Positions 15-27,314 of a DNA stretch of 37,091 bases are shown piece after piece; position 1 is the first letter of the stretch; every line of letters begins with the position of its first letter. Origin of the DNA: Clostridia bacterium (GTDB taxonomy: Bacteria; Bacillota; Clostridia; Oscillospirales; CAG-382). Location of the stretch: the NCBI GenBank assembly GCA_017466805.1, contig JAFTTN010000015.1, positions 1-37,091 of the forward strand, read 5' to 3'. The translations under genes were made by a program, and so were the position numbers. The notes beneath the pieces are model-generated. The model was not told where the DNA came from. It was given only the letters and a program-made list of their open reading frames with translations, and searched no databases.

Positions 15-143
15 GAAATAAATCCCTATACGCCGAAGCGTATTTCACATTGCGAAGCAATATTTCATATCCGTAGGATATTTCACAAATCCCGCAAGGG
101 ATTTATTTCGTTGGCGTAATGTCCGTTAAGGACATCACGCCAA
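15..143. repeat. Composite array of nested short hairpins
   Basis: Five perfect or near-perfect hairpins follow each other. Arms are ATACGC/GCGTAT (28-43, loop CGAA), ATTGC/GCAAT (49-61), ATATCC/GGATAT (67-81), AAATCCC/GGGATTT (87-104, loop GCAA) and TTGGCGT..ATGTCC/GGACAT..ACGCCAA (111-143, one mismatch). The first four are joined by the spacers TTTCAC and TTTCAT. An outer arm at 15-26 (GAAATAAATCCC) is the exact reverse complement of 98-109, so it could enclose the three inner hairpins or compete with the fourth. The array lies 25 bp beyond the stop of the DUF4956 gene and may serve as its 3' end. Small modular palindromes with TTTCAC/TTTCAT spacers look like a dispersed genomic repeat, but no second copy is present in this window. 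Confidence 0.8.
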
Positions 144-834: not shown

Positions 835-846
835 ATTAAACTCCTT

Positions 847-1515: not shown

Positions 1516-1527
1516 TCGGGCACCTCC

Positions 1528-10798: not shown

Positions 10799-10827
10799 AG
10801 TGTATAACTTTTTTATTGATTTGTCAA
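10799..10827 (-). promoter_or_regulatory. Probable sigma-A promoter for coaW
   Basis: On the minus strand TTGACA (10822-10827) is followed after 17 bases by TACACT (10799-10804), about 63 bases upstream of the coaW start. A second TATAAT at 10776-10781 has no good -35 box. Confidence 0.5.
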
Positions 10828-10847
10828 ATTATTTTTTCGAAAATCCC

Positions 10848-10876
10848 TTTTCATATCGAAAGTTTTGTGATATGAT
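10848..10876 (+). promoter_or_regulatory. Possible promoter for holB-ricT
   Basis: TTTTCA (10848-10853), 17 bases, then TATGAT (10871-10876), 34 bases ahead of the GTG start. The -35 box is weak. Confidence 0.4.
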
Positions 10877-10910
10877 AATAATGAGCAAAAATAGTTTGGA
10901 GGGTTTGACG

Positions 10911-11867: not shown

Positions 11868-11879
11868 GAGTATAAAGCA

Positions 11880-13127
11880 ATGGAAAATAATCAGAACAAC
11901 GGCAACAACAACGAAAAGCGCGAGCATCAGGGCGGAAACAAGGGCGGACACCACAACCACCACCGCAACAACCGCCGCAGAAACGGCAAGGGCTATAACA
12001 AAAAGCCGAAGAACAAGCCCGAAAACGCGCTGACCGAAAACGCAGATGAAGATAACGCGCAGGCAGAGCCCGCGGCAGAAGCGAGCCAACAGCCCCGCGA
12101 AAGCCGCGAAAGCCGCCACGAAAGGCGCGAAAGCCAAGGCAACAAAAGAAAAATGGACGAGCAGGCAGAGGAATTCGGATCGGGATTCGTGCCCGAGCCC
12201 GAGCCCGAGCGGAAATATATGTTCGATTACGAGCCGCTTCCCGCAGACGAAAAGGAGGAAGAGGCAAAAACTATCGAGGTTGTCGGAATAAAGTTCCGCA
12301 ACGGCAGTAAGATTTATTATTTCTCGCCGCTTGATATAAAATTCGAAAAGGGCGAGCACGCGATTGTCGAAACGGTACGCGGAGTCGAATACGGCGAGGT
12401 GGCGTTGGGCAACAAGATGGTTGGCGAATCCGAGGTTGTATTCCCCTTGAAGCCGGTGCTTCGCAAGGCAACCAAGGAGGACGACGAGCGAAACGCCGAA
12501 AACCGCAAATTAGAGGAAAGCGCAAGACCTATTTGGCACGAAAAGGTTGCCAAAAACGGTTTGGATATGCAGCTTGTCGACGTTGAATACACCCACGACA
12601 ACGCAAAGCTGTGCTTTTATTTCACTGCGGACGGCAGAGTGGACTTCCGCGAGCTTGTTAAAGACCTTGCGGGAGTATTCCGCACCAGAATCGAGCTTCG
12701 CCAGATAGGCGTGCGCGATGAGGCAAAGCTGTTCGGCGGCTTGGGCAGCTGCGGCAGACCTTTTTGTTGCAAGACCTTCCTGCCCGATTTTACACAGGTT
12801 TCGATAAAAATGGCGAAGGAACAAAACCTTTCGCTTTCCTCCTCGAAGATAAGCGGCAGCTGCGGCAGACTTATGTGCTGTCTGCGCTTCGAGCACGACA
12901 CCTACGAGCGTGAATACGCAACCTTCCCGAAGGTAGACACTATCGTCGACACGCCCAAGGGCAGAGGCGTTATTGTGGAAAGCAGCTTTTTGACCGGAAA
13001 GATAAAGGTTAAGATGAACAACGACCAATCGATAAAGGTGTTTGGCAAGAGCGAGCTTAAGGCGCTCGGTATGATTAAGGTTAAGGACGACGTAAGCGAG
13101 GACCTTAAAAAGCTCGAAGACAAATAA
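11880..13127 (+). CDS. ricT: RicT (YaaT)-type PSP1-domain protein with long disordered N-terminus
   Basis: This 415-residue protein has a PSP1 core from about residue 132 to the end. RicT works with RicA and RicF as an iron-sulfur-bearing complex that stimulates RNase Y processing of mRNA and affects sporulation and biofilm in Bacillus. Diagnostic features are GVRDEAKLFGGLGSCGRPFCC (shown in part: C291, C296, C297) and CGRLMCC (C328, C333, C334), which hold cluster ligands. Bacillus YaaT is about 275 residues; the extra roughly 130 here are asparagine, histidine and arginine rich (HHNHHRNNRRRN) then acidic, and are surely disordered. They look suited to RNA or metal contacts. AGGAG precedes the ATG. 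No ricA or ricF gene is in the window. Confidence 0.88.
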   Translation: MENNQNNGNNNEKREHQGGNKGGHHNHHRNNRRRNGKGYNKKPKNKPENALTENADEDNAQAEPAAEASQQPRESRESRHERRESQGNKRKMDEQAEEFGSGFVPEPEPERKYMFDYEPLPADEKEEEAKTIEVVGIKFRNGSKIYYFSPLDIKFEKGEHAIVETVRGVEYGEVALGNKMVGESEVVFPLKPVLRKATKEDDERNAENRKLEESARPIWHEKVAKNGLDMQLVDVEYTHDNAKLCFYFTADGRVDFRELVKDLAGVFRTRIELRQIGVRDEAKLFGGLGSCGRPFCCKTFLPDFTQVSIKMAKEQNLSLSSSKISGSCGRLMCCLRFEHDTYEREYATFPKVDTIVDTPKGRGVIVESSFLTGKIKVKMNNDQSIKVFGKSELKALGMIKVKDDVSEDLKKLEDK

Positions 13128-13191: not shown

Positions 13192-16100
13192 ATGAAGAAA
13201 GCAATTTTAAGACTCGTTGCATTTTGCTTGATTACCGCGCTAGCTTTCTCCGCATTGGTAATGCCCGTTTCGGCGTTCGAATGGGATAACGCAGGTGCGA
13301 GCAAATATGCAACACACTACTCGAGCGACTACTACACCTACGGCAAGTTTTACAAAAACATGACCCGTATTCCTCTTACCGGCGACGGCGCGAGGGACGT
13401 TGTAGCGGTTGCGGCATCGCAGGTCGGCTATCTCGAGGGCGACAGCTCTTACGGCTACACCGGCGAGGTCGGCGGCTCGACCAACTATACCGAATACGGC
13501 TACTATATGGGCCTTTCGGGCGGAGCCTCGCACGCTTGGTGCGCCGCATTCTGCTCTTGGGTGTTCCGTACGGCAGAGGTAACCACCGTAGACGGCTATT
13601 ACAGCGACACCAACTCGGGCAACATTTGGGCAGACACCTACGTTCCCGACTGGAGCACCTATCTTATTTCTGCGGGCAGATACAGATATTCCGAAGCCTT
13701 CAGAAGCAGCTATGCTCCTTCGCAGGGGGTATATATCCCTCAGCCCGGCGACCTTGTATTTTTTGCGTCCTCCTACAGCGATTATCCCGGTTGGGAGGGA
13801 CACATCGGCTTGGTTGCATATTGCGACGGCAATTACGTTTATACGCTCGAGGGCAACACCTCCTCGCAGGAGGGAGTTGAATCCGAAGGCGGCGGTATGT
13901 TCTTTAAGTCCTATTCGCTTTGGAGCGACAGCCTTGTGGGCTTTGGCGTAATGCCCTATGAAACGGTTAGCGGTCTTCCCGCAATCGATTATTCGGGCGC
14001 AAACCCCACCCCCGGTCTTTACGTTACCGTTTCCGGCGCGAAGAGCGTTTATCTTGACAAAAACGATTCGGTTGCAAGCTGGACGCTTCCTATGTCCTCG
14101 GTTTTCGAGGTTATTAACATCGATTACGATTCCGACGGACTTTTGATGCTGTATTCGAAGTGCGAAATTAACGGCGAAACGGTTTACGGCTGGATAGTAC
14201 ACGGAAGCGGAAGCAACGGCTATACCAGAACGCTTCAGATTTACGCCTCCGACGACCCCGTTGAAGACGTACCCGTAGACGGAAATCCGTTTTGGGTAAC
14301 CCATTTCAACAACATCGAAACCGAAGGCTCGGGCGTTATTATGACGAACAGCTATACCGGCGGCACGTGGAATATACACGTTGCGTTCAAGCCTGTTTCG
14401 TCGGGCACGAACGCTTACGAAATTACCGCTATTTCCGACGGTACCGAGGCGGGCGGTGCTTCTCCGCTTTCTATTCCCACCGGCGGCTTCGTATACACGC
14501 TTAACCGCGGTAACGACTGGCCCTCGATTTACGCATCCGACCCCGAAACTTATTCTTGGGCGGCAGGCTATCCCGACTACACAAACGCTTCCTGCGAGGC
14601 GATGATAACCGCCGCACAGAGCTGGAAGGTCGGCGACAGATTCGTATTCACCAATATCGACATAAATGCTAAAAGGGTTCCCACGCCCACTCCCGCGGTG
14701 AAGTGGTACGAAAGCGGTTATAAGTGCGTGGCGGGCTACAAGCCCTACGGCTCGGGCGGAACCACACCCGGTCCCGACCCTGATCCCGATCCCGATCCCG
14801 ATCCCGACGAGCCCATTCCGGTTCCTCCCTCGACTCCCGCCAAGCCCAACAAGGTGCAGGAGGCGGGTATACCCGGCAGCGCAGCAAATATTGCGTTCGG
14901 CTGTGACCTTTCCTTCTATAACGTAGGCTCGAGCGGTTATTCGGAATCGGATGCCGATTATTCGCTCGTTGACTTCAAGAAAATGAAGGCTGACGGCTGT
15001 GATTTTGCAATTCTCCGTCTTGGCAGCGCGGATTCCACCGGCAGATATTACGATCCTCACTTTGTTACTTATTCTAATATGGCGCGTGAAGCGGGCATGG
15101 ATTTGGGTGTATATTATTACTCCTATGCATATTCGTATGCCGATGCCGTTGCCGACGCGGAATTCGTAATGGACGTTATCGAAGACTGCGGAATGTACTT
15201 CGAATACCCCATTTACATCGACATCGAAGAGCCCGATCAGCTTGCGCTCGGCACCACCGCGCTCGACAACATTTGCCTCGGCTGGTGCGAAACGCTCGAA
15301 AAGAACGGCTATTTCCCCGGCATTTACGGCAACTACGAGCTTTACGATCAGCTCTCTTCGGGCGTTATTAATACCTATGATACCTGGATCGCTTGGGTTT
15401 CCTCGGCGGATTCGATGAGCAGCTACACACCTTGGGCTTACAATTTAAGCGATGAATGCGGCATGTGGCAGTATTCCTTCTATGGCTACGAATACGACGG
15501 TATCGGGCTCGATATGCTCGACGTTAACGTAGCATATAAGGATTACCCCGCGATTATGAAGAAATACGGCTTTAACAATATCAACGGTGAGGGCGGCAGT
15601 AATATTCTTTCGCAGAAATATTACCCCGACGCAAACACCCGTGACGACGTTTATGCCGATGACGGAAACCGACTTGTCGACGGCAACAAGGGCAGTCTTT
15701 ACGGCGGTGAAATCGGACGTTATTCCGGCTGGAACACCGATTCGCTCGATATTATCGTTGAAACCGACGGCGTTTACGGATACAACACCTTTAACGTTTA
15801 CGCGGCAATAAACAGCTCTTGGGGCATTAACGCTCCTCCCGTTTCGCTTACCGTTTCGGTATCCAACAGCCTAAACGGAACCTATACCACCATCGCGCAC
15901 AGCGAGGACGTGGCACTTACCGCAACCGGCAGCGACGGCTGGAAGACCTATATGCTTACCGCATATATTTCCAAGCTTACCAACAAGCGTTACGTTAAGT
16001 TTACCATTACTCCCGTTTTGGGCGACGAGGGCAAGGGTCACATCTGGCTTGACGAAATCGAGGTTGCATACACCGCGAACGTCAATCCCGGCGACACCGA

Positions 16101-16320
16101 CGACGTTATCGACAACACCAAGATTGCTTTGGGCGACGTTAACAACGACGGTGCGATCAACCAGTACGACTACATACTTGTAAAGCGTCATTATTTCGAA
16201 ACGCGTTATCTTACCGCAGACGAGGAAGTTCGCGCAGACGTAAACCGTGACGGCAAGGTAGACCAATACGACTATATACTTATCGCACGCCACTATTTCG
16301 GCACTTATAAGATAGGTTGA
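13192..16320 (+). CDS. Secreted wall hydrolase: CHAP + GH25 lysozyme + dockerin
   Basis: This 1042-residue exported protein has a signal peptide (1-28, ending MPVSA). Then come a CHAP peptidase/amidase domain (about 66-256, with C117 in AWCAAF, H204 in EGHIGLVA and PGDLVFF), an SH3-like segment (274-340) and a repeat domain shared with the neighbouring NAGPA protein (365-517). After a D-P linker (526-541) come a GH25 muramidase (565-795, with D572 and the D677-I-E679 pair), a discoidin-like beta sandwich (805-962) and a type I-like dockerin (976-1042). Both dockerin loops are canonical (DVNNDGAINQYD and DVNRDGKVDQYD). It should cut both the peptide and the glycan of peptidoglycan. AAAGGGG precedes the ATG. 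The dockerin implies docking to a cohesin, unusual for a wall hydrolase. Convergent with the NAGPA gene. Confidence 0.9.
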   Translation: MKKAILRLVAFCLITALAFSALVMPVSAFEWDNAGASKYATHYSSDYYTYGKFYKNMTRIPLTGDGARDVVAVAASQVGYLEGDSSYGYTGEVGGSTNYTEYGYYMGLSGGASHAWCAAFCSWVFRTAEVTTVDGYYSDTNSGNIWADTYVPDWSTYLISAGRYRYSEAFRSSYAPSQGVYIPQPGDLVFFASSYSDYPGWEGHIGLVAYCDGNYVYTLEGNTSSQEGVESEGGGMFFKSYSLWSDSLVGFGVMPYETVSGLPAIDYSGANPTPGLYVTVSGAKSVYLDKNDSVASWTLPMSSVFEVINIDYDSDGLLMLYSKCEINGETVYGWIVHGSGSNGYTRTLQIYASDDPVEDVPVDGNPFWVTHFNNIETEGSGVIMTNSYTGGTWNIHVAFKPVSSGTNAYEITAISDGTEAGGASPLSIPTGGFVYTLNRGNDWPSIYASDPETYSWAAGYPDYTNASCEAMITAAQSWKVGDRFVFTNIDINAKRVPTPTPAVKWYESGYKCVAGYKPYGSGGTTPGPDPDPDPDPDPDEPIPVPPSTPAKPNKVQEAGIPGSAANIAFGCDLSFYNVGSSGYSESDADYSLVDFKKMKADGCDFAILRLGSADSTGRYYDPHFVTYSNMAREAGMDLGVYYYSYAYSYADAVADAEFVMDVIEDCGMYFEYPIYIDIEEPDQLALGTTALDNICLGWCETLEKNGYFPGIYGNYELYDQLSSGVINTYDTWIAWVSSADSMSSYTPWAYNLSDECGMWQYSFYGYEYDGIGLDMLDVNVAYKDYPAIMKKYGFNNINGEGGSNILSQKYYPDANTRDDVYADDGNRLVDGNKGSLYGGEIGRYSGWNTDSLDIIVETDGVYGYNTFNVYAAINSSWGINAPPVSLTVSVSNSLNGTYTTIAHSEDVALTATGSDGWKTYMLTAYISKLTNKRYVKFTITPVLGDEGKGHIWLDEIEVAYTANVNPGDTDDVIDNTKIALGDVNNDGAINQYDYILVKRHYFETRYLTADEEVRADVNRDGKVDQYDYILIARHYFGTYKIG

Positions 16321-16391
16321 TAGGGCATAAAAGCGGAAAAGCCTTTTACACAAAGCTTTCCCGCGGCTGTTACGAAAATCAGCATAAAAAC

Positions 16392-16430
16392 AAATCAAGC
16401 TTCGAAATTGCTTCGAAGCTTGATTTTTTT
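16392..16430. terminator. Bidirectional terminator between the two large secreted-protein genes
   Basis: A perfect 15 bp stem, AAATCAAGCTTCGAA (16392-16406) and its complement (16412-16426), has a five-base loop and a run of T on the plus strand to 16430. The left side is A-rich (AAAAACAAATC), which serves as a T run for the minus strand. It lies between convergent genes. Confidence 0.9.
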
Positions 16431-16456
16431 GTTCGTTATAAATTGTTAATTGCTGC

Positions 16457-19400
16457 TTATTTGTTTACGGTAACGGTGGTCATATCGCTCGAAACGATGA
16501 CGGTATCGCCGGATTTGAGCGCCATAGCAGCAACCTTGCTTTGCCAGTTATCGTAATCGCCGGGGCAGGATGCCGCCGAGTGAACTACCATTACGATATC
16601 GCCGCTCGACCATTTAAAGCCTGCGTTTGCGGCAGAGCCGGGAGTCACGGCAACCTTGACAACCTTATATTCGTTTGCGTTTCCGGTAGCGCGGAGCTGA
16701 ACGCTTATTGCCCAGTTGGGATTGCAGTTATTATAGTAGGATTCGCTTGTTACGATAGTAGCGTCCTCGCCTGCGATAGTGCCGTTAACGGAATCGATAT
16801 TGAAGGTATAGCCGTATGCGTTATCGAAGCTGTAATCGCCGTCGCCGTTGACGGTAGCGCCGTAGCTGTCGGGAATGCCGTCGCCGTCTGCGTCGGCAAG
16901 CACGCCTGCGGAAACGACGGTAACGGTGGATTTATCGGAAGCGACGGTTACGACGTCGCCTGCTTTAAGTGCCATAGCGGCAACCTTGCTTTGCCAATTA
17001 TCGTAATCGCCGGGGTGGGATGCCGCCGAGTGAACTACCATTACGATATCGCCGCTTACCCAAGTGATATTTGCGTTTGCGGCAGAGCCGGGAGTTACGG
17101 CAACCTTAATAACCTGATATTCGTTTGCGTTGCCTGTGGGACGGAGCTGAACGCTTATTGCCCAGTTGGGATTACAGTTATTATAGTAAGACGAGCTTGT
17201 TACGATAGTAGCATCCTCGCCTGCGATAGTGCCGTTGGTGTAATCGATATCGAAGATATAGCCGTATGCGTTTTCGAAGCTGTATTCGCCTTCATCGTCG
17301 ATAGAAACGCCGTAGCTGTCGGGAATACCGTCGCAGTTCGCGTCGGGGTTTTCGGGATCAACGGGGGGTTCGGGTTCTTCGGGAGTTTCGGGAACTTCGG
17401 GTTCTTCGGGTTCTTCGGGTTCTTCGGGAGTTTCGGGAACTTCGGGTTCTTCGGTTTCTGCAGCCGCCGCGGTTATATAGAAGTCTACTGCGTAGCGGGT
17501 TTCGCTGCAGTTTGTGGTGTATTCTTCGCCGATATAGCTGCCGTCGGGGTTAACGAGGGTGACGGTGCAGCTTTCGCCGATAGTATAATCGCCTGCGGTA
17601 TCGAAGCGGACGTAGAGGTCGTAAAGCGTGCCTGCGGTCATTACCGTGCCGGCGCTGTAGGTGCTAAAATCGTCCGAGTTGTACCAGATTGCAACGTATT
17701 CGCCGATAGCGGTATCGCAAAGAGAGGTATCGCCGTTTACACTGTAAAGAACAGGAGTGAAGATCGCGTTGCCTTCGGTGAAGCTGATTTCGGTGCGGAA
17801 TTCAACCGAATCGATAACGAGCTCAACCTCGGGCTCTTCGGGAACGTCGGGAGTTTCGGGAACCTCGGGTTCCTCCGGGACTTCGGGCTCTTCGGTTTCG
17901 GGAGCGGCGGAAATTACGGTAACGGTGGATTTATCGGAAGCGACGTTGACTATATCGCCTGCTTTAAGTGCCATAGCGGCAACTTTGCTTTGCCAATTAT
18001 CGTAATCGCCGGGGTGGGAAGCGGCAGAGTGAACTACCATTACGATAGTGCCGTTATTCCAAGTGATATTTGCGTTTGCGGCGGAGCCGGGGGTTACAAC
18101 AACCTTGGAAACGCTGTATTCGTTTGAATTTTCGGTTGCTTCGAGCACAACGCTTATTGCCCAGTTGGGATTACAGCTGTTGTAGTAGGATGCGCTTGTG
18201 ATAATCGTTGCATCCTCGCCTGCGATAGTGCCGTTGGTGTAATCGATATTGAAGGTATAGCCGTATGCGTTTTCGAAGCTGTATTCGCCGTCTTCATCGA
18301 TAGAAACGCCGTAGCTGTCGGGAATGCCGTCGCCGTCTGCATCGGGATCGATCGGCTCTTCGGGAACTTCGGGAGTTTCGGGAACCTCGGGTTCTTCGGG
18401 AGTTTCGGGAACTTCGGGTTCTTCGGGAACTTCGGGTTCTTCGGGAACTTCGGGTTCTTCGGGAGTTTCGGGAACTTCAGGAGTTTCGGGGACGGTGCCT
18501 TCGCCCAAAAGCTTAATATAGGGAGCAACTCCGAGCGAGCGCGATTCGAGGTCGATGCCGTAGAGTGCGAGCGTTTGACCTGCGGTTGCGGCGGCAAGGA
18601 GGTTTTTGTTGTTGGTGCTGGTGCCGTCTTCGTTATCGTGAACGGCTACCAAAATTTGATTACTGCCGACGTAAACCGTTTCGGTTTCTTCGCCGATGCC
18701 TTGAGCGTTGCTTGTGAGAACGTATGCGCCGAGCGAATCGTCCCAGGTGAAGAGCGCGTTTTGCGTCCAGTTGTGGTTAGCCGCAGTGGTGGAGATCCAG
18801 CCGCCGTTGAATTCGTTGGTGAAGATAACGGCAGAGCCTGCGGTAACGGGGGTGTTGAATGCGGTTATATAGATGCCGTCTTTAATTCTGTCGTCGTTTT
18901 CTGCAGCCGCTTCGGTGTATTCCGCGATCGTTGCGGTGCAGACGTAGGAGGAATCGTACCAATTCTTCGAGGGTGTGGTAGTGGGAACAGATGCGGAGGA
19001 AAGGTCGAGTCCGCCGAACAGGAATCTGTCGCCCACAGACCAGGTAAGCGCTCTTTCGACCATATCGAAGCAGGCTTCGCTGGTATAGTCGGGAAGCGAT
19101 GCCGCCCAAGAATATGCGCTCGGGTTGGCGGCGTAAACGGTGGGCCAATCGTTACCCTTGTTTATGGTGTATACGAAGCCGCCCGAGGGGATTGCAAGCG
19201 GAGTACCCTCACCTGCCTTGATACCGTTGGAGATAGCGGTGATCTCGTAGGCATCGGTGTTTGCAACGGGGCTGAACGCAACGTGGAGGTTCCACGCGCC
19301 GCCGGTGTAGCTGCTTGTCATTATCGAGCCCGCGCCTTCGGCGTTTACGTTATTGTAGTGGGTAAGCCAGAAGGGCTCGGTGGGCAGGTTTGCGGTGGAG

Positions 19401-20848
19401 GAGGGACCTGTTTTTGCGATAAGCGCTTTGAGGTTTTCCGCTGCCGCAATATATTCCTCGTCGGTCGAATTTTCGTTTTCGTAAACCGCCTTTGCCGCGT
19501 TATATGCAACACGGATAGCGTTGAGGTTTGCTTCGGTGTAATCGTAGTGGTGAATCGCTTCTGCCGCGCGGAGAGCCGATTTCAAGGTGGGCTTGCCGGG
19601 ATCGCTTTTTACGATAAGGATACAGTCGGCAACCGCTCTCGAGTGCGACATAACGTATCCGGGATAGCCCGAGCCGGTGTTAGAAACGTACATTGCGGTA
19701 GATCCGCCGCCGTCCATACGGATAACGTCTACACAGCCGAGCTGAATCATAGCCGCGGCAACGTCTTTAAGCGTAAGAGATTGCGAGGTATCGCCGGTGC
19801 TTCCGCCTTCGGAGGTGAAGAAGACGTAGGTGCCGTCTGCCTTTTTGCCGAATACGGTCCAGCGGGCATAGGTGCCGGTAACGCTGTGTTCGCCGATATA
19901 GGAGTTATAATCGGTCATATCAACGCCGTCTTTAACAAGCCAGCCGACGTTAGTGATAACGCTTCCCGCGTTTTCCATTATTTCCTTCGATTCCTCGACG
20001 GTTTCCTCTACCGAGATTTCGATTTCATCGCCGACCGAAAGACCGGTGAGGTAGTTGATATAGGAGGAGCCCGAGGGAGTGGTTAAAACGAATCTGTCGG
20101 AATGCGAATAGTAATCGGAGATATATGATTTGCTGGTGTAGCCGTTGATTTGAACTACCTTGGCAGACATAGTTTCGCCGACCGAAAGGTCGCTGCCGTT
20201 GACCTTTTCGCAAACCACCTCGTAGCCGTAGGAGGAATCTGCATAGGTGCCGCAGGAGGTATCGTAGTAATAGATCGCGTCGGTTCTCCAAACGTCAGAA
20301 TCCTGCTGCTTGTTAATAAAACGCAATGCATCGGGCACCAAAGAGCCGTTGATGTAAAGGTTATATGCAAGCTGAGAATCGACTATATCCATGCTTCCGT
20401 CGTAGCCGAAGGCAACGACGCTGGTAAGGTTACCGTAGGTGTAGCCGATATCGGCGCAGGATACCTTGCCGCCGGAAATAAGCATACCCGTGAGGGTGCC
20501 GGTTTCGAGGTCGAAGTATGAGCCGTTGATAACGCCCACTACCTCGTAGCCGTATTTGTTAACGGCGATATCGTATTGCGTTTCGAGCAGATTGCAGCTG
20601 CCTGCATTTGCGGCGAACGCCATTGGGATATATCCGTCGTTCGGGTGGAATTCAAGAACGGTAGCCTGTTCGGTATGACCGCTGTAGCTGCCGTATACGC
20701 CGTAGCTTGCGTAGCTTACGCCTTCGGCAACGTCGAAATAGTTGTAAACCGACATCGAAACGTACGCCGATGCCGACGCGACGATGCACGCGGTTGCGAG
20801 CAACGCGATCAACGTAAGCAGCGCGGTTGCTTTTCTTAACGTTTTCAT
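16457..20848 (-). CDS. Secreted NAGPA-type phosphodiester glycosidase with repeat modules
   Basis: This 1463-residue exported protein starts at 20848, where AGGAG and a signal peptide (1-28, ATACIVASASA) begin. A NAGPA (phosphodiester alpha-GlcNAcase) domain spans about 68-414, with VINGSYFDLETGTLTG (106-121), FFTSEGGS (343-350) and RMDGGGSTAMYV (377-388). The family releases a sugar from a sugar-1-phosphate diester, in mammals from lysosomal enzymes. Bacterial substrates are mostly unknown, though wall or capsule phosphodiesters are likely. Then follow a FIVAR-like helical segment (420-480), a domain shared with the GH25 protein (490-640), a divergent relative (655-780), PE-rich linkers, and three copies of a 145-residue repeat (836-980, 1168-1312, 1318-1463), each starting with a calcium-loop-like DGDGIPD or CDGIPD. 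No anchor is visible. Confidence 0.88.
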   Translation of the reverse strand: MKTLRKATALLTLIALLATACIVASASAYVSMSVYNYFDVAEGVSYASYGVYGSYSGHTEQATVLEFHPNDGYIPMAFAANAGSCNLLETQYDIAVNKYGYEVVGVINGSYFDLETGTLTGMLISGGKVSCADIGYTYGNLTSVVAFGYDGSMDIVDSQLAYNLYINGSLVPDALRFINKQQDSDVWRTDAIYYYDTSCGTYADSSYGYEVVCEKVNGSDLSVGETMSAKVVQINGYTSKSYISDYYSHSDRFVLTTPSGSSYINYLTGLSVGDEIEISVEETVEESKEIMENAGSVITNVGWLVKDGVDMTDYNSYIGEHSVTGTYARWTVFGKKADGTYVFFTSEGGSTGDTSQSLTLKDVAAAMIQLGCVDVIRMDGGGSTAMYVSNTGSGYPGYVMSHSRAVADCILIVKSDPGKPTLKSALRAAEAIHHYDYTEANLNAIRVAYNAAKAVYENENSTDEEYIAAAENLKALIAKTGPSSTANLPTEPFWLTHYNNVNAEGAGSIMTSSYTGGAWNLHVAFSPVANTDAYEITAISNGIKAGEGTPLAIPSGGFVYTINKGNDWPTVYAANPSAYSWAASLPDYTSEACFDMVERALTWSVGDRFLFGGLDLSSASVPTTTPSKNWYDSSYVCTATIAEYTEAAAENDDRIKDGIYITAFNTPVTAGSAVIFTNEFNGGWISTTAANHNWTQNALFTWDDSLGAYVLTSNAQGIGEETETVYVGSNQILVAVHDNEDGTSTNNKNLLAAATAGQTLALYGIDLESRSLGVAPYIKLLGEGTVPETPEVPETPEEPEVPEEPEVPEEPEVPETPEEPEVPETPEVPEEPIDPDADGDGIPDSYGVSIDEDGEYSFENAYGYTFNIDYTNGTIAGEDATIITSASYYNSCNPNWAISVVLEATENSNEYSVSKVVVTPGSAANANITWNNGTIVMVVHSAASHPGDYDNWQSKVAAMALKAGDIVNVASDKSTVTVISAAPETEEPEVPEEPEVPETPDVPEEPEVELVIDSVEFRTEISFTEGNAIFTPVLYSVNGDTSLCDTAIGEYVAIWYNSDDFSTYSAGTVMTAGTLYDLYVRFDTAGDYTIGESCTVTLVNPDGSYIGEEYTTNCSETRYAVDFYITAAAAETEEPEVPETPEEPEEPEEPEVPETPEEPEPPVDPENPDANCDGIPDSYGVSIDDEGEYSFENAYGYIFDIDYTNGTIAGEDATIVTSSSYYNNCNPNWAISVQLRPTGNANEYQVIKVAVTPGSAANANITWVSGDIVMVVHSAASHPGDYDNWQSKVAAMALKAGDVVTVASDKSTVTVVSAGVLADADGDGIPDSYGATVNGDGDYSFDNAYGYTFNIDSVNGTIAGEDATIVTSESYYNNCNPNWAISVQLRATGNANEYKVVKVAVTPGSAANAGFKWSSGDIVMVVHSAASCPGDYDNWQSKVAAMALKSGDTVIVSSDMTTVTVNK
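16460..18343 (-). repeat. Three coding copies of a 145-residue repeat
   Basis: Copies occupy about 17909-18343, 16913-17347 and 16460-16897. Shared signatures are DGIPDSYG, NGTIAGEDATI, NPNWAISV, TPGSAANA, IVMVVHSAAS and YDNWQSKVAAMALK. The last two copies are nearly identical over most of their length and almost adjacent, suggesting recent tandem duplication. The first is separated by an unrelated 120-residue domain (17465-17821). Confidence 0.88.
18350..18496 (-). repeat. Low-complexity DNA encoding proline-glutamate-valine linker
   Basis: About 49 codons encode alternating PET/PEV/PEE units (VPETPEEPEVPEEPEVPE). Shorter versions occur at about 17825-17902 and 17345-17461. Such linkers separate domains in exported wall proteins and are prone to length change by slippage. 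Confidence 0.85.
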
Positions 20849-20884
20849 AAAAACTCTCCTATAAAAATAAACAATACTGAATTC

Positions 20885-20913
20885 ATTATATAAAATTCGG
20901 CCACTTATGTCAA
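20885..20913 (-). promoter_or_regulatory. Consensus sigma-A promoter of the NAGPA gene
   Basis: On the minus strand TTGACA (20908-20913) and TATAAT (20885-20890) are separated by exactly 17 bases, 37 bases upstream of the ATG. Both boxes are perfect, so strong basal transcription is expected. Confidence 0.9.
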
Positions 20914-20920
20914 CGACGTT

Positions 20921-21030
20921 TGTGCACATTTTATATTTTTGTACATTGCCCCGAAATTTTGTGGCAATATATACCAAATTGGCTTTTTCATTTTTTGCAG
21001 TTTCACCACATATTTCGGGGTAAGTGCACA
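20921..21030. promoter_or_regulatory. Long inverted repeat with flanking GTGCAC palindromes upstream of the NAGPA promoter
   Basis: CCCCGAAAT (20949-20957) and GTGG (20961-20964) pair with ATTTCGGGG (21012-21020) and CCAC (21006-21009). GTGCAC occurs on both outer sides (20922-20927 and 21024-21029). Further GTGCA copies follow to 21107. The region between the NAGPA promoter and the S8 terminator holds no gene. A regulatory role is a guess. Confidence 0.4.
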
Positions 21031-21056
21031 AAAGTGTTCGTTAAAGTGCAAAACAA

Positions 21057-21091
21057 AAATCCCCCGCGGAAGCAAAAGCCGCGGGAGATTT
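21057..21091 (-). terminator. Terminator of the S8 peptidase gene
   Basis: On the minus strand the stem AAATCTCCCGCGG pairs with CCGCGGGGGATTT (one mismatch) around a nine-base loop, followed by TTTTTGTTTTG. It lies 45 bases beyond the stop of the S8 gene. Confidence 0.85.
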
Positions 21092-21135
21092 GGATGTTTT
21101 TTGTGCATTTTTCGGAAATTACGAAAAAATCGATT

Positions 21136-24100
21136 TTATTCCTTATTACGCAATTCCTCGTCGCGCTTGGCGAGCTTGATATACATAGTGATAACAGCCG
21201 CGGCGAATACGAGCGCACCGATTATTGCGAGCACCGTGACGAGCGATATACCGTCGTTCGTATCGTCGGGGAGCGATTGCTCCGAGCTTTCGACAATCGG
21301 CGGAAGAATATTTACGTACACCGTGTAGGTAAGCGATTCGCCATCGGGCGAGCCGACGGTTATCGTTATCGGAGTGACGCTGCCTTTTAGTGTAGTATCG
21401 CCGATTATTACGCGTGCGCTCGGGCTTTGCGCCACACAGTAGAGATTTATTTTTTCGGTACCGTAGGGAACCGAAACCGAATAATCGAGAATATCGGGAT
21501 TGAACAGCGGCGAAAGCCGATGCCCTTCGATTTCGAGCGTTGCAAGGCGGCAGTTGGTATCGAAGCGCGGCTCGTCGTCACGGCGTACGCGTATGGTATA
21601 CAGCGTTGTCGAGCCGTTTTTATCGGTTACGCTTATGCTTACCGTACCCTTGCCGGTATCGTCGATAACCAGTCCCGAAACAGCCACGTCGAAGTCGGCT
21701 TTGCGGGTGACCGAAATATCGGCGAGCGCGCTGTTATAGGGGATAACAGCGGTATAATCGTATTTTTCGGGATCAAAGACAAAGCTTTGTGCGTTGTGGA
21801 AGGCTATATTGAATTCGCCCTCGGGTACGCCGTAAACGAAGCTCGAGGAGGGCTCGAAGCGAACGGTTTTACAGCCGTCCTTGAAGGATGCCGTAAAGCC
21901 ATTCGAGGCGAATTCGACGGTGCTTCCCGCTTCGGCGGTAACGCGGAAGCGCAGAACGAGCAATACCTTGAACGCCTTTTCGCAGTTTTCGCCGTTGTTT
22001 CCGTGGGCGAAAAAGCTGATTTTGCCATTGCCGATATCCTTTGCGCCGATTTCCCAGCCGGCAGCTTCGGCTTCGATAAATTCAAGCCCTTCGCTTATTT
22101 CGAGCACGCCCGAAACGCCGCGGGTGTATTTGCATCCGCTTATACAGATCGCAACGTCGATAACCGAGCCGCTTTCGATATAGGTGAGCGTTTGCACCGA
22201 GCTCAAGCCGAACAGATTTTCCGGCGGGGTTGCCGCATTGCTTTCGCCGGGACGCAGTATAAGATTTTTCAGCGCGCGGTGGTCGTTATCGGCGGTAATA
22301 CCGTTGCCGTTGACGTCTGCCGCGGCAATAAACGCGCTTTCGTAGCTTTGGCCGCGCAGAATGCGCTCGTGGATATAAATATCGTATGCGGAGATATAAC
22401 CGTCGCCATCGCAATCGCCGGGGACTACCGCGGTAAGAGTGTCGGTTACTTCTCCGTTTTTGGTTAGAACAATTTTATCGCCCGTGCCGATTACGCCTGA
22501 TTTTTGTCTGCCGTCTTTATCGGTTACGCTTACTCCGTTTGGGTTTATAAGCTGTGACAAAAGCGAGCTCGAGTCGGTGGCGGGGGGAATTCCGATTGCA
22601 AGACCGCTGTTTCGGTCGATGCGCAGTCCGCTTTCGCCGTTGAATACCAGCAGGTCGTCGCGCACGGTGATTATACAGCTTGCTCGGAAGCTGCTGTAAT
22701 CGGTTTCGGCAAGCGCGGTAACGGTATAAACGCCGATTTTGTTTGCGGTTATTACGCCCGATTCGGATATGGTTATTCCGTCGGAATCGCATTGGAAGAC
22801 CGCGGGTACTGAGCCTGCGCCCTCGGGCAGATATTTAACCCGCAGGGTTACGGTTTCGCCGACCGACATTATTCTGTCGCCGACAAGAAATTCGATAGCT
22901 TCGATATTTGCTTCTATAGTGAAGTTAACCGAAACGCTTCTTCCGCAGGGGAGCGAAACGAGGAAGGTGTGCGTGCCCGCGCCGCTTGCTGCAGAACCCG
23001 ATTCGAACGGCTTGCCGTCGAGATATCCTATACCGTGCGAATATTCGATAACTACGCTGTCGATATAAATGCTCGACTCGGTTATGCCGCGGATTTCGGG
23101 GCTTTGGGTGACCGGAATACCGTTGCCGAAGCTGCAGACCGAAACGAGTGCATTGCCGAACGAAACCACCGAATTGCTCGAGGTTACCGCGGCGGCTTTG
23201 GGGCTTTCTAATCCGAGCGTACCGATATATTGGCTATTTACAAGGTCGAAAACGCCGTCTTCGGTTATTATCGCGCTGTTGCTTACCGTTAGAATTTCTC
23301 CGTCGAGGTGCGCGAATTCGGCGTTTAAGGTAGGGTCGTAAACCACGCCGCCGACGGCGACGCCCTTGCCGAGCACAAAATCCTTTGCGTTCGTTTGAAC
23401 GCTGCCGAGGAGAAGAAGATTTTCGTTATATACCGAAAGACTGTCGTCGTCGAGAACGTACAGCCTTTCGCCGTCGCTGTCGACCGACGATGCGCGAATC
23501 GAGGTGATCGCAACGTTGCTTCCGTCGGGAAGGCAATGGGTTATTCTTCCGCCCGAAACGGCATACAGCCTGCCGTTTGCAACCGCGGCGGAATCGCAGA
23601 TTGCGGGGAGGTTTATATAAACGCCATCGGAAAGCGAGCTTTCGGGAGCCAGATATATTTCGGAGCGCTCTTCGAAGCAGACTGCGACGTAGCCGCCCGA
23701 AACGAACAGCTTTTTGGGCGAAAATCTTAAGGGCACGCTTGCCTGCTCGCCGAAATCCGCCGAGGAAAAGCCGCAAAGCGAATTTTTATCCGAGAACAGA
23801 AGGAAAACCGTTTCGCCGCTCGCCTTTGCCGAAAGAACTTTTGAATACGGGGAATAGAACACGTCGGTACGGTAGGGGTTGATCTGCTCGGGCGGAGAAA
23901 GGGTATATTCGCACCGAACCGCCGCGCCGTATTTGGCAATACCTTCGACGCCTTCGTCGATAACCGTCATTACCGCCTCGGTACCGAAGAGATAGACGCG
24001 GTTTTCGGAAATTTCGATATCCGAAAGCTGATAAGCAAAGCTGCCCAGCTCTTTGCCGGTGGAAATTTCGATTATTCGGTTATCGGTATACAAAAGACCG

Positions 24101-26577
24101 TTTTCGATTTTGACTGCGTAATTCGAACAAAATTCAAGCACGCATTTTCGGCTTGCCGTATCGATAAGCTCGTTGCCCACGGCAAGATACCCATCGCCGT
24201 AGCAGAGCGGAACACCGTCTATCGACCTGCCGATATCGAATATGGAAAGTGTATCGTTTATCGGGTCGTAAATTCTGGCAAGCCTATCCGAAGAGGGTGC
24301 AAGCAGGCAGAAAAGACCGTTTGAGTAATAAACGAGCTCGGGCGTGAAGGAAAATCTGCGTATATCCTCGAAGCTGCCGTCGAGCGATATTTTTCGCATC
24401 ATATTGTTGCCGAAGCCGTAGATTTCGTTTTCGGCGTAGATATAGTAGCTCGATTCGCCTATAAAGCCGAGGCTTTGCGCCGCTTCCTCGCCCGAAAGCG
24501 CGTTTTTGCGGTCGAGCAGGGTTATACCGCCTTCGCTGAACAGAATTAGGTATTCTTCGGTAAAGGCGTGGCTGTAAACACGCTCGATAGGCAGGAAATA
24601 GGCGTATTGCTCGGGCAGGCTTATATCGTAAATGCGCGCGCCGACGAGCGATTCGCCGTAGAGGCAGAAATATCGATTTTCGGAATCGACTGCGGCGGAA
24701 GCGTTTTCGTAATCGGTTAAATAGCTGCTTGCGTGGGGGAAATCGAGCTCGAAGGCATATTCCTCCGAAATCGCGCCGTCGATGCTTTTCACTGTAAGCG
24801 TGTGGCTTCCGCTTTCGCACACCGCCGCTTCACCGAAGATTTCGACTCCGTCGAGCTCGGCATAGCCGTTGCCGATTATTTTGATTTCAATGGGTGAGTT
24901 ATAAACACCGCCGTTTTCGACACCGTATACGGCGGGAAGCGAATATTGCAGGTCGATCGTTTTTTCCAAACGCTCGTCACCGTCGGTCAGCACGAATTCG
25001 TGTCTGCCCGTGGTGGAAATACGGTCGCCCGAAAGATAGGGGAAGCCGTCGAGAAGTGCGGTTCCGCGGGCGAATTCGAAGCAAGCAAAGGTGGCGAATT
25101 TTTTGAACTCGTAGGAAAGCGGGTCGTAATCGAGGATAAACACCATGCTTCTTTCGCTTTTACCGTCGACTACGGTGATTATATGTCTGCCGCTTTCGAT
25201 AACCGTTTCGCCGTCCTCGAACGGCTCGCCGTCGAGCGTGGCGGTGCCGCGGTTAAAGCCGATACGGACGCTGTCGGAATATCTGCCCAAATTGCTTATG
25301 CCGGTAATTATCGGGAGCGACGCACGCGTTACCACTGTGCTTGCGTTTATTATGCCGTAGCCGAGCTCGTCGGTGCGCTTGTTGCCGCAGGTATCGATTA
25401 TCAGCGCCAAAAATTCATCTCCGCCGAAGCGCGCTGTGCCCGCTTTCGTTGCAGCGAGCGCGGCGATACCGCTTACTATCGCGCAGGAATAGCTTGTGCC
25501 CGAATCGGTACGGTAGACCGATGCGCCGAGCTCATCGACATAGGGAAGGGTTAAAAGCTCGCCGTTCACCGCAACGTCGACCGCATCGTTATATTGCGAA
25601 AAATCGCTTCTTTCGCCGTTTTCGTTGCAGGATGCGACCGATATAACGTTATCGTAGGATGCGGGATAGCTTTTTTGGTCGGCGTAGGGGCGGTTGCCGC
25701 CGTTGCCTGCCGCCGAGATAAGTATACAGCCCTTTTCGGCGGCGTAGTTTACCGCGTCCTCCTCGGCGTACGAGAAGGAATAACCGCCGATAGACATATT
25801 TATTATTTTTGCGCCTGCATCTGCGGCGAAGCGGATTCCTGCGATAAGGTCGGAGGAATAAATGGTGGTGCCGCCGGTAGAAACCTTTACCGGAAGCACG
25901 GTCACGCCGTGTGCGACGCCCGCAATGCCAAGTCCGTTATCCGCCTGCGCGGCGATAATGCCTATAACTCCGGTGCCGTGGCCGACCGCATCGCCATCGA
26001 CGTAGGCGGTTTTGGTGACCGCGTCGTAGCCGGGAAGCAGATTAATGCCGGCAATATCCTCGTGCGTGCGGTTTACGCCGGTATCGAGCACCGCTACGAT
26101 AATATCGCTGCTTGCCTTTACGCTGTCCCAAGCGGTGTTTATCCCCGCGGATTCATATACGGGAAGCGCAACCGGATCGTTTGTAAGTGCGAGTGATTCG
26201 CGCGCGAAATCGGGCTCGTAATAATCGATAATATCGCCGTGCGATTTAAAAAAGTCTTTGCTTTCCAATGAGATTGCGAAAATGCGCTGTTCGCTTTCGG
26301 CAAGCAGGCGGTAGGGAATGCCGTTAAGCACGCTTTCGATTTTTTCGAGCTCGGTATTTTTTTTGAACTGCACGATATAGCGTTGGCTTTCGGGCAGGGG
26401 GGATACAGCCTCGCCTTTCGTATTGCCGTTGCCGAGCGCCGATTCTATAGCCGATTCACGTTGGGTATCGGCCTGCTCGAACGGCGATTTGGGCGCAAAA
26501 AGAACGCCGCCCGCTACGCACAGTGCAGGCAGAAGCGTTAGAAGTATTAAAATCAACGCTACCGTTCTTTTCGTCAT
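21136..26577 (-). CDS. Membrane-anchored S8 subtilisin-like protease with dockerin and cohesin-like domains
   Basis: This 1813-residue surface protein starts with a hydrophobic signal (7-27), then an inhibitor-like propeptide (about 66-125) and an S8 catalytic domain (about 140-415) with intact D165 (VLDTG), H200 (GHGTG), N292 and S362 (GTSYS). Next come three immunoglobulin-like LDG repeats (424-613), a long beta-rich, propeller-like part (about 615-1150), a fourth LDG repeat (about 1157-1219) and a BIG2 domain (about 1224-1305). A dockerin follows (about 1386-1441, loops DCDGDGYISAYD and DVNGNGITADND), then a cohesin-like domain (about 1455-1575), two cadherin-like sandwiches and a C-terminal membrane helix (about 1778-1800) with a basic tail. 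There is no LPXTG motif. The ribosome site is weak. It follows trmN6 by eight bases. The proteolytic call is firm; the cohesin call is moderate. Confidence 0.9.
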   Translation of the reverse strand: MTKRTVALILILLTLLPALCVAGGVLFAPKSPFEQADTQRESAIESALGNGNTKGEAVSPLPESQRYIVQFKKNTELEKIESVLNGIPYRLLAESEQRIFAISLESKDFFKSHGDIIDYYEPDFARESLALTNDPVALPVYESAGINTAWDSVKASSDIIVAVLDTGVNRTHEDIAGINLLPGYDAVTKTAYVDGDAVGHGTGVIGIIAAQADNGLGIAGVAHGVTVLPVKVSTGGTTIYSSDLIAGIRFAADAGAKIINMSIGGYSFSYAEEDAVNYAAEKGCILISAAGNGGNRPYADQKSYPASYDNVISVASCNENGERSDFSQYNDAVDVAVNGELLTLPYVDELGASVYRTDSGTSYSCAIVSGIAALAATKAGTARFGGDEFLALIIDTCGNKRTDELGYGIINASTVVTRASLPIITGISNLGRYSDSVRIGFNRGTATLDGEPFEDGETVIESGRHIITVVDGKSERSMVFILDYDPLSYEFKKFATFACFEFARGTALLDGFPYLSGDRISTTGRHEFVLTDGDERLEKTIDLQYSLPAVYGVENGGVYNSPIEIKIIGNGYAELDGVEIFGEAAVCESGSHTLTVKSIDGAISEEYAFELDFPHASSYLTDYENASAAVDSENRYFCLYGESLVGARIYDISLPEQYAYFLPIERVYSHAFTEEYLILFSEGGITLLDRKNALSGEEAAQSLGFIGESSYYIYAENEIYGFGNNMMRKISLDGSFEDIRRFSFTPELVYYSNGLFCLLAPSSDRLARIYDPINDTLSIFDIGRSIDGVPLCYGDGYLAVGNELIDTASRKCVLEFCSNYAVKIENGLLYTDNRIIEISTGKELGSFAYQLSDIEISENRVYLFGTEAVMTVIDEGVEGIAKYGAAVRCEYTLSPPEQINPYRTDVFYSPYSKVLSAKASGETVFLLFSDKNSLCGFSSADFGEQASVPLRFSPKKLFVSGGYVAVCFEERSEIYLAPESSLSDGVYINLPAICDSAAVANGRLYAVSGGRITHCLPDGSNVAITSIRASSVDSDGERLYVLDDDSLSVYNENLLLLGSVQTNAKDFVLGKGVAVGGVVYDPTLNAEFAHLDGEILTVSNSAIITEDGVFDLVNSQYIGTLGLESPKAAAVTSSNSVVSFGNALVSVCSFGNGIPVTQSPEIRGITESSIYIDSVVIEYSHGIGYLDGKPFESGSAASGAGTHTFLVSLPCGRSVSVNFTIEANIEAIEFLVGDRIMSVGETVTLRVKYLPEGAGSVPAVFQCDSDGITISESGVITANKIGVYTVTALAETDYSSFRASCIITVRDDLLVFNGESGLRIDRNSGLAIGIPPATDSSSLLSQLINPNGVSVTDKDGRQKSGVIGTGDKIVLTKNGEVTDTLTAVVPGDCDGDGYISAYDIYIHERILRGQSYESAFIAAADVNGNGITADNDHRALKNLILRPGESNAATPPENLFGLSSVQTLTYIESGSVIDVAICISGCKYTRGVSGVLEISEGLEFIEAEAAGWEIGAKDIGNGKISFFAHGNNGENCEKAFKVLLVLRFRVTAEAGSTVEFASNGFTASFKDGCKTVRFEPSSSFVYGVPEGEFNIAFHNAQSFVFDPEKYDYTAVIPYNSALADISVTRKADFDVAVSGLVIDDTGKGTVSISVTDKNGSTTLYTIRVRRDDEPRFDTNCRLATLEIEGHRLSPLFNPDILDYSVSVPYGTEKINLYCVAQSPSARVIIGDTTLKGSVTPITITVGSPDGESLTYTVYVNILPPIVESSEQSLPDDTNDGISLVTVLAIIGALVFAAAVITMYIKLAKRDEELRNKE

Positions 26578-26585
26578 TCTTTAAA

Positions 26586-27314
26586 TCAAAATCTTTCGTA
26601 TATTCTTTGCATTTCCTCGGTTTGCGAGGTATGCGATTCATCGGTATAAATCAAAAGGTCGTTTTCGTAAATCAGACCCTCGCGCCCGTCCTTGCGGCCT
26701 TCGACAAGAATAAGCGAGGGCTTTTTGCCTGCCGACGCGGTCACCGCGCGCAGACGCTTCGGCTCGATTTTGTTGGCACGCATGGCACAAAGCAGGTTTA
26801 CCAGCCTATCTGGGCGGTATACGGCAAAAAAGCTGCCGCCGCTTTTAAGGCACCAGGCTGCCGCTTGGCAAAACATATCGATCCCGCCCGAGATTTCGCG
26901 CCGTGCGATATTAAGCGGGGTGCTTTCGTTTTCGGCGCCGCAATCGGCACGCATATACGGCGGGTTGGTTACCACGTAATCGGCCCTGCCGCTTTCGAAA
27001 AGCGATTTGTAATCGGCGGCGCTGCCGCAGATTATTTTAAAGCTTTCGCCATATCCGTTCGCGCGCGCGTTTTCGGCGGCGAGAGAAGCGTATTCGGGCT
27101 GAAGCTCGAGCCCGCAAAAGCTTGCTTTACTGCCCGAAGCGAGCATTAACAAGGGGATAACCCCCGAGCCTGTGCCGAGGTCGATACAAGTGCCGCGCTT
27201 TGCGGCGGATGCAAAATCGGCAAGCAGCAAAGCGTCGGTCCCGAATCGGATGCCGCCCTCGAGCTCCTTTAACAGCAGGTTTGCGTTTATTCGGTTTTCG
27301 TAAAGCTCTGCCAT
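26586..27314 (-). CDS. trmN6: tRNA1(Val) adenine-37 N6-methyltransferase-like protein
   Basis: This 242-residue class I methyltransferase has the SAM-binding motif CIDLGTGSGVIPLL (43-56) and the N6-adenine catalytic motif NPPY (117-120). The N-terminal RFGTDALLLADF is typical of the TrmN6/YfiC family, which methylates A37 of tRNA1(Val) in Escherichia coli. Length fits the family. Clostridial members are often found near rsmI or yabA; neither is here. The ATG has GGGGTATT upstream. It is probably the first gene of a two-gene unit with the S8 protease, an odd pairing that may only be read-through. Confidence 0.85.
   Translation of the reverse strand: MAELYENRINANLLLKELEGGIRFGTDALLLADFASAAKRGTCIDLGTGSGVIPLLMLASGSKASFCGLELQPEYASLAAENARANGYGESFKIICGSAADYKSLFESGRADYVVTNPPYMRADCGAENESTPLNIARREISGGIDMFCQAAAWCLKSGGSFFAVYRPDRLVNLLCAMRANKIEPKRLRAVTASAGKKPSLILVEGRKDGREGLIYENDLLIYTDESHTSQTEEMQRIYERF

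Follow-up and report, generated by a model that had tools for sequence, protein, structure and literature searches.

A GH25/CHAP hydrolase as probable cargo of a genome-wide cohesin-dockerin system, next to a subtilase with a dockerin and a cohesin-family domain of its own

RESULTS AND DISCUSSION

Two dockerin-bearing proteins in one locus

We analyzed a stretch of 37,091 nucleotides from a Clostridia bacterium (contig JAFTTN010000015.1; the whole stretch is called the window), which encodes a peptidoglycan hydrolase that ends in a dockerin and, two genes away, a subtilase with both a dockerin and a cohesin-like domain. The original prediction, made from the letters of the window, was that the subtilase, anchored in the membrane, docks the muramidase at the cell surface. 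We assessed these two proteins in the light of all dockerins and cohesins in the genome and in its relatives. The window is contig C10 of a metagenome-assembled genome (MAG) of an uncultured gut bacterium, 1.89 Mb in 92 contigs and 73% complete; G numbers denote genomes (G000 is this MAG), C numbers contigs of this MAG and L numbers loci. The features on which the argument turns are the following.

13192..16320, + strand: predicted secreted CHAP and GH25 peptidoglycan hydrolase with a C-terminal dockerin, 1042 residues (open reading frame (ORF), Pfam, motif residues)
16129..16290, + strand: type I dockerin of the hydrolase, residues 980-1033, member of the main dockerin set of the genome (Pfam, genome scan)
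21136..26577, - strand: subtilase of 1813 residues, in the order S8, X module, dockerin, cohesin-like domain, Cadherin-like repeats, C-terminal hydrophobic segment (translation, Pfam, alignment)
22255..22422, - strand: divergent internal dockerin of the subtilase, residues 1386-1441, recognition dyads AY/DN (Pfam, E = 2.7e-6)
21853..22215, - strand: NagJ-like cohesin-family domain of the subtilase, residues ~1455-1575 (hhalign, PDB profile search, Pfam in homologues)

Pfam places a CHAP domain at residues 112-222 of the hydrolase (E = 1.1e-7) and a GH25 domain at residues 593-762 (E = 5.7e-16); in the subtilase it matches Peptidase_S8 at residues 157-408 (E = 4.9e-44) as well as Cadherin-like domains. 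Motif residues are found at AWC 115, GHI 203 and YIDIE 675 of the hydrolase and at LDTG 164, HGT 200 and GTSYS 360 of the subtilase, which we take to be the catalytic motifs of the CHAP, GH25 and S8 domains. The C-terminal hydrophobic segment of the subtilase reads as a putative membrane anchor, and its module order is seen in an alignment with 29 relatives, some rows of which are partial. As had been predicted, the hydrolase ends in a two-loop dockerin: the match to PF00404 (Dockerin_1) scores 45.5 bits (E = 8.8e-12) against a Pfam cut-off of 22.9 bits, and both calcium loops are readable.

The hydrolase dockerin belongs to a genome-wide set

The MAG yields 43 dockerin matches, 37 of them over the cut-off, and thus the dockerin of the hydrolase is one of a large set. 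A helix motif, [KR]Rx[YF]F, is found in 36 of the 37, the dockerin of the subtilase being the only one that lacks it, and Q[YF]DY stands at the recognition positions in 31. Compared with the other 36, the dockerin of the hydrolase shows 76-85% identity to 22 (two of these 22 are clipped by contig ends), and its lowest value, 30%, is with that of the subtilase. For both window dockerins the best solved match is PDB entry 8x39, named 'Serine protease'. We considered that such matches might be chance or degenerate EF-hands, a possibility that is ruled out by the E-values and by the presence of 37 dockerins in the genome. All matches in an NCBIfam scan fell under the curated cut-offs.

The ends of contigs C64, C39, C5 and C3 share a 99-base dockerin sequence, and two cargo genes are cut there; near-identical dockerins therefore break the assembly. 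Since the MAG is incomplete and its assembly breaks inside dockerin and cohesin sequences, its dockerin and cohesin counts are lower bounds.

Cohesin-bearing proteins are encoded elsewhere in the genome

Three cohesin matches over the cut-off occur in the MAG, all outside the window, on C21, C36 and C86; a further match, on C91, is under the cut-off at 15.3 bits. The ends of C36 and C21 overlap by exactly 141 bases, inside the cohesin, and we read them as one gene, whose protein combines a signal peptide with a repeat domain, the FWVTH domain described below, a cohesin and, at the C-terminus, a hydrophobic tail. The 141-base break within this cohesin hints that the cohesin is repeated or that strains differ here, and more cohesins may be hidden there. 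In the protein of C86, Pfam recognizes a single cohesin and hhalign, run against scaffoldin cohesins, recognizes two (80.4% and 96.0%); this protein also carries a dockerin with the main-set motifs. There is one sortase match in the genome. Thus, the earlier statement that no cellulase, xylanase or scaffoldin is visible holds for the window, and GH9 was found in none of 24 genomes of the genus (see below), but its scaffoldin part fails for the genome, where two cohesin-bearing proteins are found.

Dockerin cargo includes peptidoglycan- and phosphodiester-cutting domains

We scanned 40 ORFs of the 43 dockerin matches with Pfam, leaving out two 51-residue contig-end fragments and the match on C26. 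Peptidoglycan-type hydrolase domains are counted in 5 of the 37 dockerin proteins: GH25 with CHAP in the hydrolase of the window, GH25 on C39, CHAP on C64, an amidase on C91 and a glucosaminidase on C22, whose dockerin scored 22.7 (cut-off 22.9) in the ORF-level scan. Phosphodiester-type cargo comprises NAGPA (C3, C8) and GDPD (C84) proteins, and ester/acetyl-type cargo comprises GDSL esterases (C41, C84) and a deacetylase (C68). Further dockerin proteins are transglutaminase-like (two, at C49) or carry a C39-like peptidase (contig C69), CotH (C24), GHL10 (two, one of them with a GH66-type match too), DUF4855 (C71, C51), a metallophosphatase (C57) or LRR (C41), and several have no additional Pfam domain. 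A dockerin accompanies GH25, judged by position, in two of three cases in this genome and in both cases in the relative G004; G017 gave no GH25 match. The part of the original prediction that placed wall-active and phosphodiester enzymes in a cohesin-dockerin system is borne out by this cargo.

We considered that the system might be specialized for bacterial envelope polymers, namely the walls or teichoic-acid-like polymers of other bacteria or the remodeling of its own envelope, the enzymes sitting on anchored scaffoldins, with an independent, self-paired protease beside it. This idea draws on the muramidase, CHAP, amidase, glucosaminidase, NAGPA, GDPD and ester/acetyl-cutting enzymes. However, CBM26, pectate-lyase-like beta-helix and Cthe_2159 carbohydrate-binding proteins are also among the cargo and speak against a purely envelope-directed system; we regard the specialization as rather doubtful.

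The same three kinds of protein, together with the GHL10/GH66-type matches, could instead point to a plant-fiber or mucin cellulosome whose glycosidases were missed through the incompleteness of the MAG (73% complete) or belong to unrecognized families, and several dockerin proteins without another Pfam domain leave room for these. Against this, the Pfam matches of the dockerin proteins of this MAG include no cellulase or xylanase family, and GH20, GH29, GH33, GH84 and GH101 gave no match among these proteins either, at the stated completeness. GH9 was found in none of the 24 genomes of the genus (this MAG included; 10 are at least 90% complete), with a control that responded; GH48 was likewise found in 0 of 24, a result that is uninformative because its control was silent. 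In G004 (97% complete), the 50 dockerin ORFs include 20 with F5/8 domains, four with GDPD, two with GH25 and two with CHAP, and none of the 25 of 46 families shown is a cellulase, xylanase or mucin-type glycoside hydrolase. We therefore think it unlikely that this is a fiber or mucin system.

The subtilase carries a cohesin-family domain of another class

As predicted, the subtilase has both a dockerin (Dockerin_1, E = 2.7e-6) and a cohesin-like domain, and our comparisons place the latter in the cohesin family. When a profile of the domain was compared by hhalign with scaffoldin cohesins from this bacterial family, the two aligned at 94.9% with a score of 50.7 bits. In the controls, four other profiles (two Cadherin-like, X and dockerin) scored no higher than 20.9 bits, and none of 30 column shuffles exceeded 15.4; the highest control overall was the scaffoldin profile against the second Cadherin-like repeat (26.4 bits, 30.7%). 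The outcome named in the original prediction as fatal to a cohesin, that the domain is a non-cohesin beta sandwich, was not obtained, and these controls and shuffles lead us to reject a generic beta sandwich.

A PDB search with the subtilase domain profile returned four sequences up to E = 10, all of them the NagJ cohesin of C. perfringens, with a best match at E = 0.0016. The scaffoldin cohesin profile returned 13 sequences, of which 11 are named scaffolding, anchoring or cohesin proteins and the remaining two are named 'Endoglucanase', in entries that pair this chain with a dockerin. In homologous subtilases, the domain passes the Pfam cohesin cut-off in G043 (30.8 bits) and G062 (30.0 bits), passes it in G001 (24.1 bits) only with its neighbors counted, and stays under it in G041 (22.3 bits); Pfam cohesin matches at E <= 1 occur in 5 of 19 aligned rows. 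Two results tell against a cohesin identity: the window copy of residues 1455-1575 has no Pfam cohesin match at E <= 1, so that the proposed Pfam search succeeded in homologues and failed in the window itself, and the two cohesin stretches of C86, as single sequences, gave no alignment with the subtilase profile (0.5% and 2.2%). Based on hhalign, Pfam in homologues and the PDB matches confined to NagJ, we read the domain as a cohesin-family domain of a class other than that of the scaffoldin cohesins. At the level of sequence, then, both modules of the subtilase are distinct from the main dockerin set and from the scaffold cohesins.

We also considered that the dockerin and cohesin-like domains of the subtilase form a mere rigid stalk and dock nothing. 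The order X, dockerin, cohesin, Cadherin recurs in the alignment with the 29 relatives, the window copy is under the Pfam cohesin threshold, and the dockerin loops are degenerate in several distant relatives; these three points would fit a stalk. The calcium-loop aspartates, however (D89, D93, D100, D122 and D133, numbered by the aligned segment), do not vary in any of the 19 rows, which is more than a spacer needs, although folding alone could explain it. A stalk is doubtful in our view, with a real chance of being correct.

The subtilase is widespread, and its dockerin and cohesin-like domain occur in one genome without another detected dockerin

For a family-wide comparison we used 63 genomes of the bacterial family. 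Dockerins were found in 61 of the 63 and Pfam cohesins in 54. The C-terminus of the subtilase, as query, matched 48 of the 63 genomes at E <= 1e-5, and at least 38 of these matches span more than 350 of the 514 query residues; the anchor cohesin as query matched 27 of 63, some of them through the tail alone. In G004, a frame of 1873 residues gave four cohesin matches and one of 1156 residues gave two, each frame with a dockerin. In G025 (97% complete), the sole dockerin at E <= 0.05 is the subtilase's own; both the dockerin and the cohesin-like domain of this subtilase were found by profile, and no Pfam cohesin was found in the genome at E <= 0.001. Since the pair occurs even where no dockerin besides its own was detected, the dockerin and cohesin of the subtilase look self-contained.

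Recognition dyads differ between species of the genus. Those of this MAG are mostly QY, and G016 has QY/QY and QY/TY; G012 has AR in 8 of 8 loops of four dockerins, G020 has AA in 6 of 6 loops of three, and in G017 serine comes first in 18 of 18 loops of nine dockerins. Outside G000 and G004 these samples are small and consist mostly of top-scoring dockerins from a hidden Markov model (HMM) scan; the reading by regular expression used for this MAG, G004 and the subtilase orthologues misses or mis-assigns some loops, such that totals are inexact. The dockerin of the subtilase retains AY in its first loop in nine of its 12 closest orthologues (L069-L080). As a side observation, the dyads are near uniform in some species (this MAG, G012 and G020), mixed in others, and differ between congeners, as if the docking code had been rewritten in concert in some lineages.

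The hydrolase was not found beside the subtilase in related loci

Two further genes bear on the neighborhood.

16457..21031, - strand: NAGPA-family phosphodiester glycosidase protein, without dockerin (Pfam, E = 1.7e-18)
26586..27314, - strand: S-adenosylmethionine (SAM)-dependent methyltransferase upstream of the subtilase, a conserved neighbor (Pfam)

The NAGPA-family protein, encoded between hydrolase and subtilase, gave no Pfam match to a dockerin. Searches with the subtilase C-terminus gave 33 named loci, 18 of which (L128-L145) are long matches; the source MAGs of these 18 are labeled mainly Clostridia or Oscillospiraceae, with gut samples of yak, goat, water buffalo or sheep in eight titles and the label Lapin in three. 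The methyltransferase, presumably TrmN6-like, adjoins the subtilase in 13 of the 18; of the other five loci, four have a truncated subtilase, and L144 has room and no match. Downstream of the subtilase, where up to 5 kb was covered in 14 named loci, homologues of GH25 or NAGPA turned up in none (0 of 14). The neighborhood varies among the named loci, and we reject a conserved muramidase-subtilase gene pair.

Two genes at window positions 10800-13127 (+ strand) precede the hydrolase, which we take to be DNA polymerase III delta-prime-like and PSP1-like. PSP1 comes directly after the subtilase in L134 and one gene later in L133; because PSP1 abuts the subtilase in L134, the hydrolase and NAGPA genes appear to occupy a variable slot.

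The hydrolase as probable cargo of scaffolds encoded elsewhere

From these results we conclude, at a probability of roughly 0.7, that the hydrolase is cargo of a genome-wide cohesin-dockerin system with its scaffolds encoded elsewhere, and that the subtilase is separate from it and is not its socket. The best reading overall is a cellulosome-like surface system in which classical cellulases are not detected and whose cargo would cut peptidoglycan, phosphodiesters and esters. In the arrangement that we infer, for binding, anchoring, surface location and substrates alike, the hydrolase would be secreted and its C-terminal dockerin would fold with calcium and bind, in a calcium-dependent manner, the cohesins of the anchored C36/C21 protein or of the C86 protein, which may act as an adaptor by virtue of its cohesins and main-set dockerin. 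Enzymes that cut walls, phosphodiesters and esters would thereby be brought together on scaffolds at the cell surface. For its part, the subtilase would be a separate, widely conserved membrane protease that does not hold the muramidase, and its dockerin and NagJ-like cohesin would most likely pair with each other, either in the chain or between copies, or act as a stalk.

The proposal that the cohesin of the anchored subtilase docks the muramidase, giving a local protease-muramidase complex at the surface, deserved attention, since both modules lie within 14 kb, the subtilase domain is of the cohesin family, and proteins with peptidase, cohesin and dockerin are known, as with ScaO/ScaP (PMC6780208). 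It is not supported: the dockerin of the hydrolase falls in a 36-member set that excludes that of the subtilase, other cohesins, of the scaffold type, are present in the genome, and the subtilase cohesin is of the different, NagJ-like class; moreover, the neighborhood is not conserved (0 of 14 downstream GH25 or NAGPA genes), and the dockerin and cohesin of the subtilase are kept even in G025, which has no further detected dockerin. Class, recognition dyads, distribution and neighborhood thus indicate that the subtilase is probably not the socket, and we hold such a complex to be very improbable.

Several observations weigh against the reading of the hydrolase as cargo of distant scaffolds and of the subtilase as a thing apart. 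A dockerin could in principle bind a cohesin of another class. The two C86 cohesin stretches, taken singly, did not align with the profile of the subtilase cohesin. Pfam missed even the cohesin-like domain of the G025 subtilase, so other partners may be missed there too, and the argument from that genome assumes that Pfam sees all dockerins. The tail of the C36/C21 anchor has no canonical LPxTG, and its gene is broken at a contig junction in a MAG that is 73% complete. Dyads are mixed in G006, G007 and G011 and of several kinds in G004 (SM, AV, SI and others), and two more G017 dockerins, on cohesin loci, have VI/ST and VF. Finally, the first gene downstream of the subtilase carries a dockerin, but no recognizable GH25, in 2 of the 14 named loci (in L128 this ORF is cut by the contig end).

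Comparison with known cohesin-dockerin systems

Cohesin-dockerin assembly is best known for plant fiber, starch and, recently, mucin. As in the cellulosomes of Ruminococcus flavefaciens and R. champanellensis, type I dockerins are found here on many secreted proteins, together with an anchored cohesin protein; the multi-cohesin scaffoldins of Ruminococcaceae cellulosomes have a counterpart in the four-cohesin frame of G004. Some of the cargo has parallels there as well, since dockerins are described on transglutaminases, peptidases and LRR proteins in R. flavefaciens (PMC2930009), and ScaK of R. champanellensis has GH25 together with one cohesin (PMC9210761). Unlike the Ruminococcaceae systems, the present one belongs to a genus without detected GH9 in any of the 24 genomes, and no cellulase or xylanase is among the cargo matches of the MAG. 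The mucinolysome described for Limousia is also cellulosome-like and from a gut clostridium, with a target other than plant fiber, an anchoring scaffoldin and dockerin-bearing scaffoldins; however, its defining feature is a set of mucin glycosidases that bear dockerins (GH20, GH29, GH84, GH101 and others), and these families are absent from the cargo matches here (PMC12997984). Lachnoclostridium sp. MSJ-17, presumed non-cellulolytic, has four cohesin proteins, two perhaps cell-associated by C-terminal transmembrane helices, with up to 39 dockerin proteins as possible partners, and the section on its cohesins does not describe this cargo as wall-directed (PMC11557425).

The subtilase resembles the NagJ/NagH cohesin-dockerin enzymes of C. 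perfringens and GH31 proteins with both modules (PMC12997984): the cohesin is of the NagJ type, and dockerin and cohesin stand on one catalytic chain. It differs from them in that the catalytic part is a putatively membrane-anchored subtilase and that a scaffoldin-type system exists in the same genome.

We considered in addition that the subtilase might be an enzyme-bearing scaffold within the same network, its dockerin sitting on a scaffold cohesin and its own cohesin recruiting cargo. Chains with peptidase, cohesin and dockerin are indeed reported in C. alkalicellulosi and A. cellulolyticus (ScaO/ScaP; PMC6780208), and in C. thermocellum an S8 protease with a double dockerin is reported, the first dockerin of which prefers the cohesin of cell-bound ScaD (PMC12484212). 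The PDB entry that best matches the subtilase dockerin, 8x39, is presumably this C. thermocellum protein. ScaO/ScaP are likened to the subtilase by architecture. Unlike them and the S8 double-dockerin protease, the subtilase has a single dockerin with an X module and a NagJ-like cohesin, and in place of Rhs or galactose oxidase parts it carries Cadherin-like repeats and a hydrophobic anchor at the C-terminus. Its own anchor, its departure from the main set in dyads and helix, and its persistence in G025, where no other dockerin or Pfam cohesin was found, argue against a place in the network, which we consider improbable.

Among the best-matching titles and abstract openings, with subscription journals thinly covered, no cell-wall-directed cohesin-dockerin system was found. 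Since mucinolysomes, the C. perfringens enzymes, presumably non-cellulolytic bacteria rich in dockerins and poor in cohesins, and peptidase chains are already in print, we consider the parts to be of known kinds, and their combination, with non-fiber cargo, to be a variant. The genus is gut-clostridial and has large dockerin sets and scaffoldins, no detected GH9 in 24 genomes, and cargo among which are domains that cut peptidoglycan and phosphodiesters; should this cargo indeed act on bacterial envelopes, assembly by docking would extend to another class of substrate. The subtilase offers a natural test case, as its one conserved chain joins a dockerin to a cohesin and neither resembles the main set. 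Moreover, dyads vary between related species and those of the subtilase change little among close orthologues, which makes partner prediction testable.

The NAGPA protein and other features of the window

The FWVTH domain of the hydrolase recurs in its neighbor.

14266..14739, + strand: FWVTH domain of the hydrolase, residues 359-516 (local BLASTP over fetched stretches)

It is also found in the NAGPA protein (residues 549-705) and in the anchored cohesin protein of C36; in all, BLASTP gave nine proteins of this MAG among the fetched stretches and one weak match in the stretches from G004. The NAGPA protein has three copies of a C-terminal repeat, whose better outside matches are on cohesin-bearing proteins (that of C36 and a cohesin ORF of G020), with weaker matches to a cohesin ORF of G012 and to the GHL10 dockerin protein encoded on C92. 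Since the FWVTH domain is common to anchor and hydrolase and the repeat best matches cohesin-bearing proteins, the NAGPA protein may reach the same surface by its C-terminal repeat.

CotH/lamin-tail, VTC-domain and DUF4956 proteins are grouped at window positions 169-4878 (- strand), and a separate CotH protein, at C24, bears a dockerin with the main-set motifs. A Gut-1 RNA (RF01706; 73.7 bits) lies at window positions 37-113 (- strand).

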